64,000 nucleotides of DNA from positions 27,512-91,511 of IMG/VR virus record IMGVR_UViG_3300031952_000010. One strand, given 5' to 3'. Shown here piece by piece: positions 8,345-51,740 of this stretch; within the stretch, counting starts at the first letter, position 1; each line of letters begins with the position of its first letter. Source of the DNA: a virus. The notes under the pieces were generated by a model that was given only the letters and a program-made list of their open reading frames with translations, was not told the origin of the DNA and did not search any database. The position numbers and the translations under genes are program-made.

Positions 8345-8548
8345 TTACTCCACCAATTTATCATCATCTGGCGATTTTGGTAGGATAAGTTGTAACCAAA
8401 TATCAAACACTAAAAAGTAAATCCACCAAGTTAAGTCTGATATTGGATGACGGTCAGAATTTAAATTAGTTAGATATAATAAAACAAGTATGTTTGTTGC
8501 AATATATATTCTGACAACTATAACTAAAAATATTAAAAATTTTTTCAT
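8345..8548 (-). CDS. small membrane protein
   Basis: 67-aa protein with two hydrophobic helices (KKFLIFLVIVVRIYIATNILVLLYL and WWIYFLVFDIWLQLIL) and an acidic tail (PKSPDDDKLVE). The start at MKKFL follows the upstream stop by 1 nt; a start six codons earlier would overlap it. It is probably co-transcribed with the P-loop kinase. Function unknown. Confidence 0.65.
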   Translation of the reverse strand: MKKFLIFLVIVVRIYIATNILVLLYLTNLNSDRHPISDLTWWIYFLVFDIWLQLILPKSPDDDKLVE

Positions 8549-8549
8549 A

Positions 8550-8972
8550 TTATAATTTAATCTCAAAACGGTTTTTCATAATCTCCAATTTGTCTTCAGG
8601 AACTCCGTGAGTATTGACCCCTCCGTGACGGTTTTCAACAATAACTGTAAAAACGGTATAACCATATTTTTTAGCCAATTTAAAATATTCGTCCATCTCC
8701 CACTCTTGTGTGAATGTATTTGATACGGCGATTTCTCGATAATATTGGTCATTTAATAATGAGTCTTTCATATAAGTTTCCACAGTATCCTGACAGAATT
8801 TATGAGCGTCTTTGATTTTTGAAACATCAAATTTATATTCACCAGTTTCTTTATCAATAAAATATTTGTCGGCTTCACAGACTAAAAAGTCCTCACCAAC
8901 TAATTTTTCGGCAAAAGTAGATTTACCCGAACCAGGTAATCCTCTAACAATAAAAAGTATTTTTTTTTCCAT
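8550..8972 (-). CDS. P-loop kinase (AAA_33 / polynucleotide-kinase-like)
   Basis: 140-aa protein with Walker A GLPGSGKST near residue 11, an Asp in CEADKYF, and a C-terminal segment (FTVIVENRHGGVNTHGVPEDKLEIMKNRFE) typical of small NEDD4BP2-like or PNK-like ATPases of phages. These phosphorylate nucleic-acid ends or small metabolites. With the RNA ligases at 40.6-42.9 kb it could supply 5'-kinase activity for RNA repair, which is inference. It has a perfect TATCTTTG promoter 4 nt before the ATG. Confidence 0.85.
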   Translation of the reverse strand: MEKKILFIVRGLPGSGKSTFAEKLVGEDFLVCEADKYFIDKETGEYKFDVSKIKDAHKFCQDTVETYMKDSLLNDQYYREIAVSNTFTQEWEMDEYFKLAKKYGYTVFTVIVENRHGGVNTHGVPEDKLEIMKNRFEIKL

Positions 8973-8976
8973 ACCA

Positions 8977-9006
8977 CAAAGATAGTGGTTTTATTATTGA
9001 AAACAA
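8977..9006 (-). promoter_or_regulatory. Bacteroidota-type promoter, leaderless context
   Basis: Minus strand: TTG (9006-9004), 19-nt spacer, TATCTTTG (8984-8977), ATG 4 nt further. Confidence 0.75.
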
Positions 9007-9109
9007 GCTGTATTATAGAAATATTTTAGCAAACTCACACACTCTAATTGCGGTGTTAATTGTTTTATAATATAGGTTGTAGAATGTTTTTTGGTAATTT
9101 TTCACAACA

Positions 9110-9268
9110 TTAAATATCATGTTTTTCTTCATTAACTAATATTTCTATTTGTCTTTTAACCATTTCTAATGTTGTGTAAGCGTAAACTTGAGAATCTTCT
9201 AAATTTTCTTCAGGAAATTGGATTTGTTGCAACTCAATCCAATCAATAATTTTCTTACAGTCACACAT
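9110..9268 (-). CDS. hypothetical small protein
   Basis: 52-aa protein (MCDCKKIIDWIELQQIQFPEE...). The ATG starts 1 nt after the stop of the thioesterase gene, so it is probably translationally coupled. It has two Cys near the N-terminus (C2, C4) and otherwise amphipathic helix composition. Function unknown. Confidence 0.6.
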   Translation of the reverse strand: MCDCKKIIDWIELQQIQFPEENLEDSQVYAYTTLEMVKRQIEILVNEEKHDI

Positions 9269-9269
9269 A

Positions 9270-9686
9270 TTACTCTGTTTCTTTGGGTAATGTCAAAACC
9301 ATCTTTTCAATCTTACATCTTCCTCTCTCACCGATTGGGATTGGGTTACCATACTCACTTATCTGAACAAATCTGATATTAGTTTTAAGTACAAGAATTT
9401 GATTTCCCGTGTAAACGTCATGAGCTCTTGCCTCCATATATAATGTTACTGAAGTATTACCAAGTTTAGAAGGATATCCATAAATTTTAAGTAATTGGCC
9501 TTCCTTCGCTGGCTTTTCAAAATTACACTTATCAATTGACACTGTAACCATTCTTGGCGAGTCACATAATTGCATTGAGTACCCTGCTGCGGCTGAGTCA
9601 ATCCATGCTAATAGTTTACCACCGAAAAGATTTCCATGGAACCCTAAATCGGATTTTTTAATCGGGTGAGTGTTCAATAATTCCAT
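9270..9686 (-). CDS. hotdog-fold acyl-CoA thioesterase (YciA-like)
   Basis: 138-aa protein with the hotdog signature: N19-x-FGG (GNLFGGKLLAWIDSAAAGY), where the Asp and conserved GG shape the active site, followed by VTVSIDKCNFEKPAKEGQLLKIYG and the strand region VTLYMEARA. The family hydrolyses acyl-CoA thioesters in the cytoplasm. Such a gene is uncommon in phages and could alter host membrane or fatty-acid metabolism. It forms a two-gene unit with the 52-aa ORF. No TAnnTTTG promoter was found. Confidence 0.85.
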   Translation of the reverse strand: MELLNTHPIKKSDLGFHGNLFGGKLLAWIDSAAAGYSMQLCDSPRMVTVSIDKCNFEKPAKEGQLLKIYGYPSKLGNTSVTLYMEARAHDVYTGNQILVLKTNIRFVQISEYGNPIPIGERGRCKIEKMVLTLPKETE

Positions 9687-27330: not shown

Positions 27331-27342
27331 GTTCTTTGACAT
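27331..27342 (+). promoter_or_regulatory. boxA-like antitermination element
   Basis: GTTCTTTGACAT, the type of sequence found in the leaders of Bacteroidota rRNA operons. It lies 17 nt before tRNA-Pro. Related copies occur before the other RNA units at 29300, 33262, 45539 and, on the minus strand, 47347. Confidence 0.55.
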
Positions 27343-29250: not shown

Positions 29251-29310
29251 AGGGGGGTAGGTAGTTAGTGGGTTGGTGACCTACTCCCCTGACGAAAGAG
29301 TTCTTTGAAT
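29251..29310 (+). promoter_or_regulatory. hairpin plus boxA-like leader
   Basis: A 12-bp stem (29251-29262 with 29279-29290; AGGGG...CCCCT at the base) is followed by GTTCTTTGAA (29300-29309). The same order (promoter, hairpin, GTTCTTTGA) occurs at 33204-33273 and 45482-45547. Confidence 0.5.
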
Positions 29311-34615: not shown

Positions 34616-34813
34616 AAAACAAATCTTACATAAGACGGATTAGCACCGTTGAAAGGAACCTTGGCTTCACCGCGGAGTAATTACCGTAACAGAAGTTCTA
34701 AATGCCCCAAGGTACTATGTAATGGACCCTGCTCTGATGTGCACGTCAACAGGTGATGGGGAACAAACCATCGGTCAAATCTAAACCTACGGTGAGCGTA
34801 GAAGATTTGTTTT
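34616..34813 (+). ncRNA. 198-nt RNA closed by a perfect 12-bp stem
   Basis: AAAACAAATCTT (34616-34627) pairs perfectly with AAGATTTGTTTT (34802-34813). Inside are CCTTGG/CCAAGG, CGG-8nt-CCG and a GATG-TGCA-CGTC-like hairpin. No ORF. It lies between tRNA-Leu and tRNA-Glu with 5-nt spacing to the latter, suggesting a discrete processed RNA. Confidence 0.55.
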
Positions 34814-40435: not shown

Positions 40436-40625
40436 GGAATGTCCTTGGGTTGTTAAAAACAAACATAACGAAATGATTACTAATCATTCGACAAAACATA
40501 ATAAACCCCATAATTGTCATATGATATCACCTGAAAAAAGAGGTGGGTTATGGGATGTAAAAGAAGAAACTAAATGTATAGGGAGAAAATTATATGAACA
40601 CAGAGAGAAAGTTAGCGAGTATTAG
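40419..40625 (+). CDS. Cys-rich small protein
   Basis: 68-aa protein (MKKPCKECPWVVKNKHNEMITNHSTKHNKPHNCHMISPEKRGGLWDVKEETKCIG...). The CxxCPW start and later Cys/His spacing suggest a small zinc-binding domain, as in DUF6283-like phage proteins. Sandwiched between overlapping genes of the RNA-repair block. Confidence 0.65.
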   Translation: MKKPCKECPWVVKNKHNEMITNHSTKHNKPHNCHMISPEKRGGLWDVKEETKCIGRKLYEHREKVSEY

Positions 40626-41616
40626 AATTATCAGTGACATCCAACCTATTGAGGGGGCTGATGTGATTGAATTAGCTATTGTCGACAGTTGGAAGGTTGT
40701 TGTTGCTAAGAATGTTGGTTATAAAGTGGGTGATATGGTTATCTACTGTGAAATCGATTCATTCTTACCAATCAAAGATGAATTTGAATTCTTAAGAAAG
40801 ACTTCGTATAAAAAAATGTCTGACGGAACGGAAGGATTTCGTTTAAAAACAATTAAAATGAGAGGGCAAGTTTCTCAGGGATTAATCTTACCAATGTCTG
40901 TTGTAGAATATACTAACGTAGATTTTGAAATTGGCGTGGATGTAACTAATTTATTAGGAATTAGTAAATACGAACCACCAATTCCTGCTGAATTATCAGG
41001 GAAAGTAAAAGGTTTATTCCCTTCTTTCTTACGTAAAACAGATGAGGAAAGAGTTCAAAACTTGACAAAAGAATATGAGAACTATAAATCATTAGGTCGT
41101 AAATTTTATGTGACTGAAAAATTGGATGGTTCTTCTGCAACATTTTACTTCAGAGACGGTGTATTTGGAGTATGTTCTCGTAACTTAGAATTACTTGAAA
41201 CTGAAGGTAACACTTTTTGGAGAGTTGCTCGTGAATTGGATTTGGAAAATAAAATGAAATCTTTGGGTAAAAACATTTCACTCCAAGGGGAATTAATTGG
41301 TGAAGGTATTCAAGGGAATCCTTACAAAATAAAAGGTCAAACTGTAAAATTCTTTAATTTGTTTAATATTGATTTACAAGTATATCATTCTTTATCTCAT
41401 TTGGATAGAGCTCTTGGTATTATGGGACTTAAAATGGTTCCAATTGTTGATGAGTTTTTCAAATTACCTGAAACTATTGAAACTTTATTAAAATATGCGG
41501 ATAATAAATCAATATTAAACCCAAAATTTAATAGAGAGGGAATTGTCATTCGTTCTAACGATAGAACCATCAGTTTCAAGGTTATTAGTAATAAATTCTT
41601 ATTAAACGAAAAATAA
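40594..41616 (+). CDS. RNA ligase, Rnl5/DraRnl-like
   Basis: 340-aa protein. Residues 1-130 form an N-terminal OB-fold-like module (RKLASIRIISDIQPIEGADVIELAIVDSWKVVVAKN). Residues 165-335 hold the nucleotidyltransferase core, with lysine 176 in EKLDGSSATFY (motif I), LQGELIGEGIQGNPY, FFNLFNI and EGIVIRS (motif IV), and a motif V lysine in SFKVISNK. This arrangement matches DraRnl-type (Rnl5) ligases that seal nicks with a 3'-OH RNA end. Likely role: RNA repair. Overlaps genes on both sides. Confidence 0.88.
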   Translation: MNTERKLASIRIISDIQPIEGADVIELAIVDSWKVVVAKNVGYKVGDMVIYCEIDSFLPIKDEFEFLRKTSYKKMSDGTEGFRLKTIKMRGQVSQGLILPMSVVEYTNVDFEIGVDVTNLLGISKYEPPIPAELSGKVKGLFPSFLRKTDEERVQNLTKEYENYKSLGRKFYVTEKLDGSSATFYFRDGVFGVCSRNLELLETEGNTFWRVARELDLENKMKSLGKNISLQGELIGEGIQGNPYKIKGQTVKFFNLFNIDLQVYHSLSHLDRALGIMGLKMVPIVDEFFKLPETIETLLKYADNKSILNPKFNREGIVIRSNDRTISFKVISNKFLLNEK

Positions 41617-41861: not shown

Positions 41862-42944
41862 ATGTTAGAAAGATTGAACAAATATTATGATGAGGGTTTG
41901 ATGCAAAAACAATCGCACCCAACCCTTCCTTTAACTATATGGAACTACACCCCAAAAGTTCAATACGGGGTGACTGGTGACCAATATAAGTTATGGGATG
42001 ATATCACTGTACAATGTAGAGGATTAGTCACTGACAATAACGGAGTTGTTGTTGCAAGACCATTTAAAAAATTCTTCAACATAGAAGAAAACCGACATAT
42101 CTCAACTTCAGATTTTGAAGTATATGAGAAAATGGACGGTTCTTTAGGAATCTTATTCAACTATAAGGGAGAATGGGTTCTTGCGACTCGTGGTTCTTTC
42201 ACTTCTGACCAATCAGTTAAAGGTACTGAGTTACTTCAAAAATACGATTATAACAAATTACATCCTGATTACACTTATTTATTTGAAATAATCTATCCTG
42301 AAAACAGAATAGTTTGCTCTTATAATTTTGAGGATTTAGTTTTGTTAGGAATGATACACACTGAAAGTGGTGTTGAGGTTGATATCCATTTAGGTAATAA
42401 TAACGATGTTAGGTTTAAAAATTTATTAAATAATCTTGAGTTAAATATTGTTAAAAAATACGACGGTATCAAAGATTATACTTTTTTGAAACGTATGATA
42501 GCGGATTCTAAAGAGGGTTTTGTTGTTAGATTCTCAAATGGTGATAGGATAAAAATAAAAGGTGAAGAATACCTTCGTCTTCATAAAATAATGACTAACG
42601 TATCAACAACTGCGGTTTGGGAGGTTCTAAGTTCTGGCGGTGATATGGAGGAAATAATAAAAGATGTACCTGATGAGTTCTACAAGAAAATAAAAATGTA
42701 TGTTCAGGAGCTTAATTATCAGTTTTACCGTTATTCAGAATATGCTGGTAAGATTCATGATTATTTCCGATACGGTAAGTATGGTGATAACGAAAAAGAA
42801 TATAGTAAAAAAGAATTTGCAGAACATTTGGTGAAATGTGATGTACATCCTAAAGTAAAATCTATCTGTTTCGCTATGTGGGACCAAAAACCATATGACC
42901 ATATCATATGGAATTTACTTAAACCAAAATTCGAAAAACTATAA
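41862..42944 (+). CDS. RNA ligase, T4 Rnl1-like
   Basis: 360-aa protein. Motif I lysine 90 lies in VYEKMDGSLGILF, preceded by CRGLVTDNNGVVVARPFKKFFN (the Rnl1 pre-motif) and followed by FEIIYPENRIVC (motif III), EGFVVRF (motif IV) and KIKGEEYLRLH (motif V). This fits the Rnl1 family that repairs tRNA cleaved in the anticodon loop (T4 Rnl1 with Pnkp counters host PrrC). With the Rnl5-like ligase, phosphoesterase and kinase it completes a plausible RNA-repair set. It has its own strong leaderless-type promoter. Confidence 0.9.
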   Translation: MLERLNKYYDEGLMQKQSHPTLPLTIWNYTPKVQYGVTGDQYKLWDDITVQCRGLVTDNNGVVVARPFKKFFNIEENRHISTSDFEVYEKMDGSLGILFNYKGEWVLATRGSFTSDQSVKGTELLQKYDYNKLHPDYTYLFEIIYPENRIVCSYNFEDLVLLGMIHTESGVEVDIHLGNNNDVRFKNLLNNLELNIVKKYDGIKDYTFLKRMIADSKEGFVVRFSNGDRIKIKGEEYLRLHKIMTNVSTTAVWEVLSSGGDMEEIIKDVPDEFYKKIKMYVQELNYQFYRYSEYAGKIHDYFRYGKYGDNEKEYSKKEFAEHLVKCDVHPKVKSICFAMWDQKPYDHIIWNLLKPKFEKL

Positions 42945-44962: not shown

Positions 44963-45145
44963 TTACTTAACAGAATGAACTGAAGTGGTGTCTACTAAAG
45001 TAGAGTCTACACTGATTTTAGTTGAGTCTGTGGCTACAGATATACTGTCTGCCGTTGTTAGAGTTTCCTCAGTTTTAGTTGATTGTCCACAAGATGTAAT
45101 CATCATTGTTCCTGCAACCAACATAGTGAAAATTACTTTTTTCAT
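44963..45145 (-). CDS. small lipoprotein
   Basis: 60-aa protein. MKKVIFTMLVAGTMMITSCGQ is a lipoprotein signal peptide with lipobox ITSC, so Cys19 should be lipidated. The mature part is Ser/Thr/Asp-rich (STKTEETLTTADSISVATDSTKISVDSTL...) and probably flexible. A TATTTAT element lies upstream on the minus strand. Phage lipoproteins can alter host receptors or block superinfection; function here is not known. Confidence 0.75.
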   Translation of the reverse strand: MKKVIFTMLVAGTMMITSCGQSTKTEETLTTADSISVATDSTKISVDSTLVDTTSVHSVK

Positions 45146-45282
45146 GTTATGTTTGTTTGTTTTTATTGATAAATAAATAGGTGATTGTTGACGTAAAATC
45201 AACTTATACTTTAAAATAATTTAGATTTTCTTAATAAAGTACACTATTTATCTAAAAAATAAAAAAATATACTGTTTAGGTA

Positions 45283-45312
45283 TTGTTAGAACAGTTTTTT
45301 TTACTATCTTTG
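45283..45312 (+). promoter_or_regulatory. tandem promoter 1 of the long ncRNA
   Basis: TTG (45283-45285), 19-nt spacer, TATCTTTG (45305-45312). Confidence 0.75.
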
Positions 45313-45381
45313 TAAAACAATTCAGGGAAATGGTTGGAGTATCTGTAAAACCGTGGATTCCTAACCTTGAAAAAAAAAACA

Positions 45382-45429
45382 AAAAAAGATTTGGTAAATC
45401 AAAAAACTTTACCTACCTTTGTACAACAA
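45382..45429 (+). promoter_or_regulatory. tandem promoter 2 of the long ncRNA (repeat copy A)
   Basis: TTG (45391-45393), 20-nt spacer, TACCTTTG (45414-45421). It lies in a 48-bp direct repeat, copy B at 45473-45520 differing at only a few positions. Confidence 0.8.
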
Positions 45430-45472
45430 AAGAGATAGACAACAATTCAGATACAAATCTCAAAAAAAAATA

Positions 45473-45520
45473 AAAAAAGATTTGGTAAATCAAAAAACTT
45501 TACCTATCTTTGTAAAACAA
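45473..45520 (+). promoter_or_regulatory. tandem promoter 3 of the long ncRNA (repeat copy B)
   Basis: TTG (45482-45484), 20-nt spacer, TATCTTTG (45505-45512). The tmRNA promoter on the other strand closely resembles this repeat. Confidence 0.8.
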
Positions 45521-45521
45521 A

Positions 45522-45547
45522 TCGGAAGAGTCCGAAACGTTCTTTGA
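45522..45547 (+). promoter_or_regulatory. hairpin plus boxA-like element
   Basis: TCGGA-AGAG-TCCGA (45522-45535) then GTTCTTTGA (45539-45547), the same leader plan as at the tRNA units. Confidence 0.5.
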
Positions 45548-46830
45548 AAAATATTATTTATCCGTCAGGATGTTGATGCTGAGACCTTCGGGTTGATTCT
45601 GAGATAACTGAGAAAGATAATCGGCCGTATATGGTCGTTAAATAAACCTCGAAAGGGGGATAAAGTGGAATCATCTGTGTTAGTGGTTCTGCGGTTTGGG
45701 AAACCAAACTCAAGTATACAAGTGGGATATCAGTGAGCCTGTAGTACCGAGGATGACTTCGTAGGGAAATGGAAAACTGAATGGGCAATGTGGATTGTCT
45801 GTTTGAGGTGGGAACACCAATAAGAATAACCCATAGGAATCAAGTGAGAAGTGTACTTCCAAATACACAATTGCGGGTTCCAATATAAAAGGTGACTTAA
45901 AACCGAAGGGGTAATACCTGAAGGTAAGATATAGAACGAGTGGTGTCGCTAATATCCTTACCAAAGGCCTACCAAGGTCTTGGTACGAAGTAATCTTAAA
46001 ATATGAGAGTGGGGACACTCTACTGAGTAGAAAAGTATCTTGTTATTCAAAAGATAACGAGGCTTAAGACGGACCTCTACTTGGAACCATCCACAACACT
46101 AAAAACTTATATGCTATTTTAAGTAAAACTAAAAAACAGATAAGCAAAAGTGTTCGTCAGGGTTTGATGAAAGTCGCCTACACAGTCACGGGTTGTCCGT
46201 GGCATACAGAGACCGCAAGTTAATGTATATTTTTACAAAAAACCTCTAGGGAGTCGAATCCCGAGTTAGTTCGCAAGACTGAAGAGAGTAGAGTAGTAAA
46301 AGAGTAGTTGAACCCTTTAGGAGTGATTGGTCTAACCAATCGGCGATGAGGATTACCATTCAAAAGATGGTGGAAATGAAGGGAAACAATAATCCTTCTA
46401 AAGATTCTCACAAAACGGTGTATTCTCAGCCTTTTAGCCTAACTATGAAAACAGTGACTCCAACCGAGGTAATTACGGTATATTCCTCGAGGTAATGAGT
46501 TTAAACTTCCCCTTAAAAAAGTCCCATAGAGTGTGTTTTTGGTTTTTTACTATGTTACAACCTTTATCTACTCTGATTGAGAAATCCAAAAAACAAGTGT
46601 GTTTGTGTCAAGATAAGACATCTTCTCTAAAAGATAAAAAACATCAACACCGATATTCTTAGGTTGTGGATTTTTATGATAACCACAGGTTTTTTATAGG
46701 TGTCTAAATAAGTAAAAAACTAAAAAACATAGACGTTTAGGTCGCGAATTCACCTCACGATAGAAGGTCCCATTCGGTGTCACAAACTGATGGAGTGGTT
46801 AAGGTTGTACCACTGAGTAAAAAGCCCAAC

Positions 46831-46862
46831 GGGAGTAACATGACGATGTTACTCCCTTTTTT
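46831..46862 (+). terminator. Rho-independent terminator of the long ncRNA
   Basis: GGGAGTAACAT-GACG-ATGTTACTCCC (11-bp perfect stem) then six Ts. Confidence 0.95.
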
Positions 46863-46940: not shown

Positions 46941-46947
46941 TAATGAG

Positions 46948-47333
46948 TGGAGGTAGAGGGGTTCGAACCCTCGTGTTGTACACCTTACCTATTAAGGACT
47001 ACACGCTTAGGATAACATTTTCTAATGTTCCAAAAATATTTAGTTTGTTCTTCACCATCGTAAACTAACAACCAATGGACGACTCGATTTTGGGTTCAGT
47101 CATTTTTCCACCTTTGTAAAGACTTCTGTTCCTAGGTTGTATGTCCACCGACCCGTATGGTGTTTCCTATATGTTAGGCAACAACCGCAGCGTCTTCACG
47201 GATTAATCCGATGGTCGCCATTTTGTCTAAAACGTTTCCGTTTACAGTTTACATCCGTAGATTTAAGTGATAGGATACATCTCACTGCGTGCCCCGAATA
47301 ACTAACAATGCCAGTCAATTCCAAGTTACCCCC
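46948..47333 (-). ncRNA. ssrA: tmRNA (SsrA)
   Basis: 386-nt minus-strand RNA. The 7-bp acceptor pairs GGGGGTA (5', 47333-47327) with TACCTCC (3', 46955-46949), discriminator A, no CCA. The T-arm is GAGGG-TTCGAAC-CCCTC. The 5' end continues ACTTGGAATTGACTGG, the conserved tmRNA start, and CTAAGCGTGTAG lies before the T-arm as in other tmRNAs. The reading frame appears to be GCG ACC ATC GGA TTA... to GCC TAA, giving a tag ending REDAAVVA; the resume codon is not certain (KM may precede ATIGL). tmRNA frees stalled ribosomes and tags the product for proteolysis. It has its own promoter, boxA and terminator. Confidence 0.95.
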
Positions 47334-49687: not shown

Positions 49688-49712
49688 AAAAAGGGGGTTA
49701 TTCAACCCCTTT
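49688..49712 (-). terminator. terminator of the clpC-like gene
   Basis: Minus strand: AGGGGTTGAATAACCCCCT then seven Ts. It overlaps the last codons of the gene. Confidence 0.8.
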
Positions 49713-51740
49713 TCTTTTTCTTATAACTTTCTTTCCATCTTTGAATTTGACATCCCCATTTTCACTGATTAAAGTGTATTCGATATTTTCTTGGATGTTA
49801 CTCTTAAGAACTTCTTCCGAGATAAAATCTTCTATTTTATCCTGAATAGCCCTTTTTAGTGGACGAGCCCCGTACATCTCATCAAACCCAACCTCAGAAA
49901 TCATTTCAATAATAGAGTCATCAAATTTAATATTATATTTAAGACCTGTTAATCTTTCAGATAAAACATTCAACTCAAGTTTAACAATTTTTTTAACATC
50001 TTCTTTCACTAATGAATTGAAAATGATAACTTCATCAATACGATTTAAAAATTCAGGAGCGAAAAACTTCTTAAGTTCTTTCTTCAAAACTTCTCTTTTT
50101 TGTTCTTCCTCAACATAAGAACTTGAGTTAGTTTTAAAACCTACACCAGCTCCAAAATCTTGTAGTTTTTTAACTCCAACATTCGATGTCATGATGATAA
50201 TACAGTTTTTGAAATTAATCTTTCTTCCCATACCATCAGTAAGGTGACCGTCATCCAACACTTGTAATAATGTTGAGAATATGTCTTTGTTTGCCTTTTC
50301 AATCTCGTCAAACAAAATTACCGAGTAAGGTTTGTTCTTAACTTGTTCAGTTAATTGACCACCTTCATCATAACCTACATATCCTGGAGGTGCCCCAATT
50401 AATCTTGAAATACTATGTTTTTCTTGGTATTCAGACATGTCCACACGAATCATATTTTCTTCACTACCAAACATTTGTTTTGCCAATTGTTTTGCCAAGT
50501 AGGTTTTACCCACACCAGTTGAGCCAAGGAAAATAAATGAACCTATTGGTTTGTTAGGGTCTTTAATACCTAATCTGTTTCGTCTGATTGACTTAGCAAT
50601 TTTCATAACCGCTTCAGATTGTCCAATTACTTTGTCAGATAAACTACTGTCTAATTGACTTAATAACATTGTTTCATCGGCGTTTAATTTACTAATAGGA
50701 ATTTTGGTCATGTTTGAAACAACCTCATAAACCAACTCAATAGAAACTTCTTTCTTCTTAACTTGAAGTTCATCTTCAAATTTTTTCTTCTCAATATCTA
50801 ATTTATTAAGAATACGTTTTTCTTTATCACGTAAGTTTGCCGCCTCCTCGTAATTTTGTTTTTTAACTACCTCAAGTTTTTCAATTTTAACATCCGCAGC
50901 CTCTTGCTTTAATTTCTCAATAATTTCAGGCATTTTAATCTCAACCTGACATCTTGCACCAACCTCATCAATAATGTCAAATGCCTTATCAGGGAACTCT
51001 CTATCAGTGATATATCTTGCCGCCAAATCAACACATACAGAAAGTACTTCATCAGTATAGGACACCTTATGAAATGTTTCGTACTTGTCTTTAACATTTT
51101 TAAGAATTTCTAATGTTTCTTCTTTTGTTGAAGCGTCAACAATAACCTTTTGGAATCGTCTTTCTAAAGCTCCGTCTTTCTCAAAGTTCTTACGATACTC
51201 GTCAAGAGTTGTAGCACCAACACATTGAATTTCTCCACGAGCAAGTGCTGGTTTAAAGATATTTGATGCGTCTAAAGAACCTGATGAATTACCAGCTCCA
51301 ACAATAGTGTGAATCTCATCAATAAACACAATGATATTTGGGGCGTTTTGTAATTCTTCAATAATTACCTTCATACGTTCCTCAAACTGACCACGATATT
51401 TTGTACCTGCAACGATTGAAGTCATATCTAAAGACACTATTCTTTTGTCCATTAAATTTCTCGGACATTCACCGTTAAAAATTTTAATAGCTAATCCTTC
51501 TACGATTGCGGTTTTACCACAACCAGGTTCACCAATAATAATAGGGTTGTTTTTCTTTCTACGAGAAAGAATTTGAGCTATTCTCGTAATTTCTCTCTCT
51601 CTACCAACTACAGGGTCTAACTTACCTTGTTCGGCTAATTTGATTAAATCTCTACTGAAGTTATCCAACACAGGTGTTGAAGAGTCAGATGTTGATTTAG
51701 GTGGGTTATTCTTTCCCCCATTGTCCATGGATTCTATCAT
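49698..51740 (-). CDS. clpC: ClpC-like Hsp100 AAA+ unfoldase lacking the N-domain
   Basis: 680-aa protein with two AAA+ modules. First: GEPGCGKT (70-77), VFIDEIHTIVGAG, GATTLDEYRK. Then a short UVR-like middle segment (KLEVVKKQNYEEAANLRDKEKRIL), characteristic of ClpC. Second: GSTGVGKT, DEIEKAN, MTSNVG and the sensor-2 GARPLKRAIQ. After MTSNVG there is a VGF tripeptide (GAGVGFKTN), the ClpP-docking loop of ClpC/ClpA, so partnership with host ClpP is plausible. The N-terminal Clp_N repeat domain is missing and replaced by a Ser/Thr/Pro-rich 25-residue stretch, so adaptor and substrate choice should differ from host ClpC. Confidence 0.93.
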   Translation of the reverse strand: MIESMDNGGKNNPPKSTSDSSTPVLDNFSRDLIKLAEQGKLDPVVGREREITRIAQILSRRKKNNPIIIGEPGCGKTAIVEGLAIKIFNGECPRNLMDKRIVSLDMTSIVAGTKYRGQFEERMKVIIEELQNAPNIIVFIDEIHTIVGAGNSSGSLDASNIFKPALARGEIQCVGATTLDEYRKNFEKDGALERRFQKVIVDASTKEETLEILKNVKDKYETFHKVSYTDEVLSVCVDLAARYITDREFPDKAFDIIDEVGARCQVEIKMPEIIEKLKQEAADVKIEKLEVVKKQNYEEAANLRDKEKRILNKLDIEKKKFEDELQVKKKEVSIELVYEVVSNMTKIPISKLNADETMLLSQLDSSLSDKVIGQSEAVMKIAKSIRRNRLGIKDPNKPIGSFIFLGSTGVGKTYLAKQLAKQMFGSEENMIRVDMSEYQEKHSISRLIGAPPGYVGYDEGGQLTEQVKNKPYSVILFDEIEKANKDIFSTLLQVLDDGHLTDGMGRKINFKNCIIIMTSNVGVKKLQDFGAGVGFKTNSSSYVEEEQKREVLKKELKKFFAPEFLNRIDEVIIFNSLVKEDVKKIVKLELNVLSERLTGLKYNIKFDDSIIEMISEVGFDEMYGARPLKRAIQDKIEDFISEEVLKSNIQENIEYTLISENGDVKFKDGKKVIRKRKGVE

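Follow-up and report, generated by a model that had tools for sequence, protein, structure and literature searches.

GOLLD RNAs of phages form cages, built as homo-14-mers, whose structures have been solved, and their expression rises during lysis. In the env-38 GOLLD, which is of phage origin and located near tRNAs, a 5' region of 420 nt lies ahead of the 3' part, the last residue is 833, and a CG/GC switch has been reported for the symmetric intermolecular bridge B8 (PMC12286853). Some GOLLDs have a tRNA in their linker (PMC12286853). The corresponding Rfam model (RF02032) is restricted to the 3' region, which is universally conserved, the 5' region being less conserved. ROOL, likewise a large cage-forming RNA of phages, occurs near tRNAs (PMC12286853); its sequence and secondary structure are unrelated. 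Two cellular systems are relevant to the way in which long untranslated RNAs are transcribed. In the leaders of bacterial rRNA operons, tandem host promoters are followed by a hairpin (boxB), a boxA of the host consensus and a long untranslated RNA, and in Escherichia coli the Nus factors recruited by boxA act with SuhB in rRNA synthesis and folding (PMC4807359). In Legionella, a boxA GTTCTTTAAAA located ahead of cellular CRISPR arrays raised the long untranslated array about 10-fold (PMC7862264).

In this work we analysed a 64-kb stretch (hereafter the window) of a 91.5-kb virus record, in which terminase and portal genes are present and ARAGORN identified 27 tRNAs. The region from 45241 to 46862 is in all probability a GOLLD gene from a tailed phage infecting Bacteroidota, preceded by a leader resembling that of rRNA operons and extended by an appended RNA, designated module X. 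The structured RNA is real and mostly explained, being a member of a known family. As far as the tools used here show, the new elements are the rRNA-type leader, which is general to the GOLLD genes of these phages, and module X. The locus shares with env-38 a 3' domain matching the entire model, a 5' domain of roughly 400 nt, a linker of variable length, the phage origin near tRNAs and a dinucleotide switch in the symmetric kissing loop L21a. It differs in its boxA leader with three promoters, in the presence of X ahead of the terminator and in a convergent tmRNA.

The region had been described, from its sequence alone, as about 1.3 kb without genes, and this description was borne out. No credible gene was found between 45241 and 46862, where the open reading frames are 40 to 102 aa in length. 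The best that can be said for a decayed or undetected protein gene is the presence of a 102-aa frame on the minus strand (45710-46018) and of a 55-aa frame on the plus strand (46495-46662). However, the latter is frame-shifted in L030, a relative with 90% identity, an intrinsic terminator lies downstream, covariation of the RNA type runs throughout the region, and a search for a conserved open reading frame in the homologues yielded none. A protein gene was therefore rejected for lack of a conserved reading frame, and its probability is negligible.

The sequence-only reading had proposed a giant structured RNA near tRNAs, perhaps GOLLD, and had suggested a search of Rfam. Using cmscan, GOLLD was matched on the plus strand from 46023 to 46432 with 320.3 bits (cut-off 150 bits; E 2.5e-92), over model positions 1-416 of 416. 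The correct accession of the family is RF02032, not RF01998 as had been given. No match at gathering score was obtained in the window for ROOL, OLE or group I/II introns, which were rejected, and no other relevant Rfam family was detected up to E 5 between 44900 and 47450. The linker within the 3' domain (approximately 46085-46138) differs in length between relatives. Further GOLLD loci were collected by pattern scans of IMG/VR, and cmscan confirmed nearly all of those on which it was run, one locus (L016) proving to be a chance match. In total, 121 full-length loci with both GOLLD domains were available. The motif AAATAAACYNCGAAAG marks the conserved 5' domain in 29 of 30 loci inspected, the exception being the divergent L031.

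The 5' domain of the window (45623-46022, plus strand, approximately 400 nt) was delimited by alignment and covariation in 25 sequences. Covarying pairs, whose absence had been named as a possible refutation, were abundant in this alignment, since 128 of the 185 predicted pairs showed compensatory changes on both sides. The L21a loop, whose counterpart in env-38 forms bridge B8, is present in 22 of the 25 sequences. In the window its sequence is UCGA, and the window group accordingly has the dinucleotide CG; the majority of the other sequences have CGCA, with GC, as in the switch reported for B8. The dinucleotide was placed on residues 656-657 of env-38 by Rfam position only. The hairpins with GNRA loops noticed earlier are present (CCUC-GAAA-GGGG, GGUG-GGAA-CACC and GCAA loops). 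The z-score of the minimum free energy (MFE) was -3.2 in the 5' half; at the 3' end it was -4.0 with the terminator and -2.05 without it. The covariation is the stronger evidence. The segment from 45623 to 46432 is thus a canonical GOLLD of ordinary size (~810 nt). The earlier suggestion of a new class does not hold for the region as a whole. A length of 1.3 kb, exceeding the 833 nt of the env-38 GOLLD (PMC12286853), might speak for a giant RNA unrelated to GOLLD, or for ROOL, OLE or a group I/II intron, but the GOLLD match is full-length, the extra length consists of the leader and module X, and for 45623-46432 the match and the covariation together refute such an assignment, which we regard as extremely improbable.

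The leader contains three promoters on the plus strand, P1 (45283-45312), P2 (45391-45421) and P3 (45482-45512), all fitting the Bacteroidota pattern TTG-N18-21-TAnnTTTG. Three tandem consensus promoters had been described, and they are indeed real and tandem, but of the Bacteroidota type: a sigma-70 scan detected none of the three, and sigma-70 promoters upstream of GOLLD were rejected on that ground. A lone match to the Bacteroidota pattern says little, because the window contains 29 of them against 10.5 expected by chance. Here, three matches are packed into 230 nt, P2 and P3 lie within the 95% identical copies of a 60-bp repeat, and relatives keep two or three of these promoters, P1 and P3 among them, at the same position. 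The 5' start of the RNA is expected near 45519, just after P3. The promoter type agrees with a Bacteroidota host. The phage records LR745206 (634 kb) and LR756502 (642 kb) contain related GOLLDs, and Bacteroidetes hosts have been predicted for huge phages of these sizes (PMC7162821). A predicted small lipoprotein (MKKVIFTMLVAGTMMITSCGQS...) is encoded divergently from the GOLLD promoters at 44963-45202 on the minus strand.

Both the hairpin and the boxA-like site reported in the leader were found, on the plus strand. The hairpin, in a boxB-like position (45522-45535), is absent from many relatives. The boxA, GTTCTTTGA (45539-45547), had been mentioned in passing and is the more informative feature. 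It starts 26 nt past P3 and is identical to the 9-mer of 16S leaders in the host phylum. In a first set, GTTCTTT[AGT]A was present in 25 of 26 distinct GOLLD leaders (0.2 expected by chance). In an enlarged set of 76 GOLLD genes, non-redundant at 95% identity, GTTCTTT[AG]A was found just upstream of the 5' domain in 72, where 0.44 were expected by chance and at most 3 were obtained in 100 simulations. The exact pattern is missing in L003, L038, L211 and L216, L038 carrying GTTCTTTTA instead, and the motif was not seen in the divergent L031 and L212; these findings apply to phages with Bacteroidota-type promoters. The distance between boxA and the 5' domain varies, mostly from 28 to 105 nt, and boxA therefore lies outside the GOLLD fold. 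Among 74 Bacteroidota 16S leaders, GTTCTTTGA is the commonest 9-mer, with exact matches in only 28 and matches at one mismatch in 47, compared with 4.4 expected. A boxA in nearly all of the GOLLD genes examined suggests how phages can produce such long untranslated RNAs, and would connect GOLLD with the apparatus of rRNA synthesis and folding. In the literature searched, which did not include the original GOLLD paper of 2009, no link between GOLLD and boxA was found, and priority is uncertain.

The motif is not confined to GOLLD leaders. In 27 phage loci, 34 of 53 boxA matches were located at most 120 nt before the start of a tRNA, a tmRNA or GOLLD, a placement observed for 3% of the matches to permuted motifs on average, and for 35% at most. 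In the window, five of the eight matches precede stable-RNA units and the other three lie elsewhere. Those at 27331 and 33262 are found directly before a tRNA and that at 29300 upstream of a tRNA cluster (all plus strand), so that the other stable-RNA units of the phage seemingly share the rRNA-type signal. This distribution bears on the possibility that GTTCTTTRA is a promoter-proximal or processing element of phage stable-RNA genes and not a boxA for Nus factors. The motif often lies 4-30 nt before tRNA or tmRNA starts, the site of leader processing, and there is little need of antitermination in units as short as those of tRNAs. On the other hand, the same 9-mer occurs in 16S leaders, the GTTCTTTAA form fits the Legionella boxA GTTCTTTAAAA that was tested (PMC7862264), and the distance to the GOLLD fold is variable. 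We consider such an element to be improbable, and favour a boxA through which the phage leaders may recruit Nus factors. Part of the GOLLD leaders carry a boxA of the GTTCTTTAAAA form itself. The parallel with CRISPR arrays concerns a boxA ahead of a long untranslated transcript, which is cellular there and a structural RNA of a phage here. Likewise, the arrangement of the rRNA leader is reproduced, except that it drives a phage GOLLD RNA and, elsewhere, tRNAs and tmRNA, with a putative role for the Nus factors.

The region from 45.5 to 46.86 kb had been taken as one RNA. GOLLD ends at 46432, however, and is followed by a second module. Module X is a structured RNA of about 380 nt (46452-46830, plus strand), ending at the 11-bp intrinsic terminator (46831-46856, plus strand) that had been predicted, in which L030 has a covarying change from G-C to A-U. 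In the relatives L006, L012 and L027, with about 90% identity, GOLLD is directly followed by a short tail and a terminator, without X, whereas the window, L007, L021 and the L030 group have about 400 nt extra behind GOLLD. A mere insertion was rejected once homologues appeared in three further lineages. A piece of X with 72% identity was found behind the GOLLD of L223, L259 and L278; L280 and L281 then came from a pattern scan, and L221/L256 and L219 from profile searches. X is thus present in four phage lineages, always downstream of GOLLD, and its length is nearly constant (376-392 nt). Compared with the GOLLD body of the window, that of L223 shows 75% identity and that of L219 70%. The identity between L221 and L223 is 95.5%, which leaves three well-separated lineages out of the four. 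No Rfam family matched X. A covariance model of X, run on 180 loci, detected it only in its own lineages, the sole other hits being weak ones in L241 (E 0.04) and L022 (E 0.23), and no X was found in the phage collection or in the plasmid collection.

The alignment of X comprised six sequences from the four lineages. Two covarying hairpins, with the loops ACGAUAGA (46752-46768) and UCACNAA (46770-46793), both on the plus strand, and one conserved stem showed pairing in 100% of the cells, with six pairs compensated on both sides; when the partners were slid by 1-3 columns, pairing fell to 35-47%. In a third hairpin the stem is kept and the sequences differ. The MFE z-scores give weak evidence for X, with -2.0 for the window and values near 0 for L219 and L223, and a substitution test between the window and L030 was not significant (p 0.06-0.19). 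We therefore claim the covarying hairpins and not the long-range helix predicted from MFE.

Whether X might be a lineage-specific 3' arm of GOLLD was considered, since it always lies directly behind GOLLD and ahead of the terminator of the latter, and is continuous with GOLLD in the lineage of the window. In the lineages of L219, L221 and L223, however, the order is GOLLD, tRNA-Met(CAT), X and terminator; this tRNA, which is lacking in the window, should separate the two RNAs by its processing, and GOLLDs with about 90% identity do without X (L012, L027 and relatives). A 3' arm is thus rather unlikely, and the comparison of the loci argues for X as a separate conserved RNA appended to GOLLD. 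Excision of the tRNA lying between the two is required in these three lineages, and would probably set X free there as an RNA of its own. Module X is the first candidate for an RNA partner of the cage RNA.

The most likely course of events is that a transcript of about 1.34 kb, made with the help of host Nus factors, would give rise to a cage-forming GOLLD and a co-transcribed second RNA. The host RNA polymerase would start at the three tandem promoters of the host type, and the leader RNA would then display a boxA with the same sequence as in the host 16S leaders, to which the host Nus factors could bind. These factors would allow the polymerase to cross about 1.3 kb of structured untranslated RNA without early (e.g. 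Rho-dependent) termination, and might assist folding of the RNA. GOLLD, in which the 5' domain is the cap and the 3' domain the ring, would be transcribed ahead of module X and of the single terminator, and would assemble into a cage of the env-38 type during lytic growth, in a locus devoted to translation (tRNAs and tmRNA). A bolder proposal is that X represents a new class of phage RNA working with GOLLD as partner, cargo or assembly factor, and that the stable RNAs of Bacteroidota phages, GOLLD foremost, are under the control of the host Nus/boxA system; we offer it tentatively, as possible but not the likelier outcome.

The GOLLD unit converges with a tmRNA gene on the minus strand (46945-47333), missed by ARAGORN and detected by the Rfam scan, which has its own boxA (47347) and Bacteroidota promoter (47389-47360) on that strand. 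Its tag frame reads GNVLDKMATIGLIREDAAVVA*, ends in VVA and is almost unchanged in L030, L027 and L012. Of 27 distinct GOLLD loci scanned, not all of which are independent, 22 have a tmRNA on the fetched stretch, at a distance of up to about 5 kb, and this linkage to tRNAs and tmRNA points to a role in translation. Within a tRNA cluster of the phage, a freshwater-1 RNA (RF02979, an sRNA family) was identified at 34718-34779 (plus strand, 84 bits). In L031, a tRNA-Leu (8446-8519, plus strand) lies inside the linker of the divergent GOLLD (8382-8832). Behind this GOLLD, a gene-free stretch (approximately 8960-9400, plus strand) contains AAGGAAAGTC, which recalls the core of RNase P; RNase P was rejected there, as no Rfam match was obtained up to E 0.5. 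Genes for two different RNA ligases lie close together on the plus strand of the window, one of the RNA_ligase/PHA02142 type (40594-41616) and one of the T4 Rnl1 type (41862-42944). Near the tmRNA, a gene on the minus strand (49698-51740) encodes a Clp-type AAA+ unfoldase of 680 aa (AAA_2, ClpB_D2-small), and it is conceivable that tagging by the tmRNA is linked with degradation by this neighbouring unfoldase.
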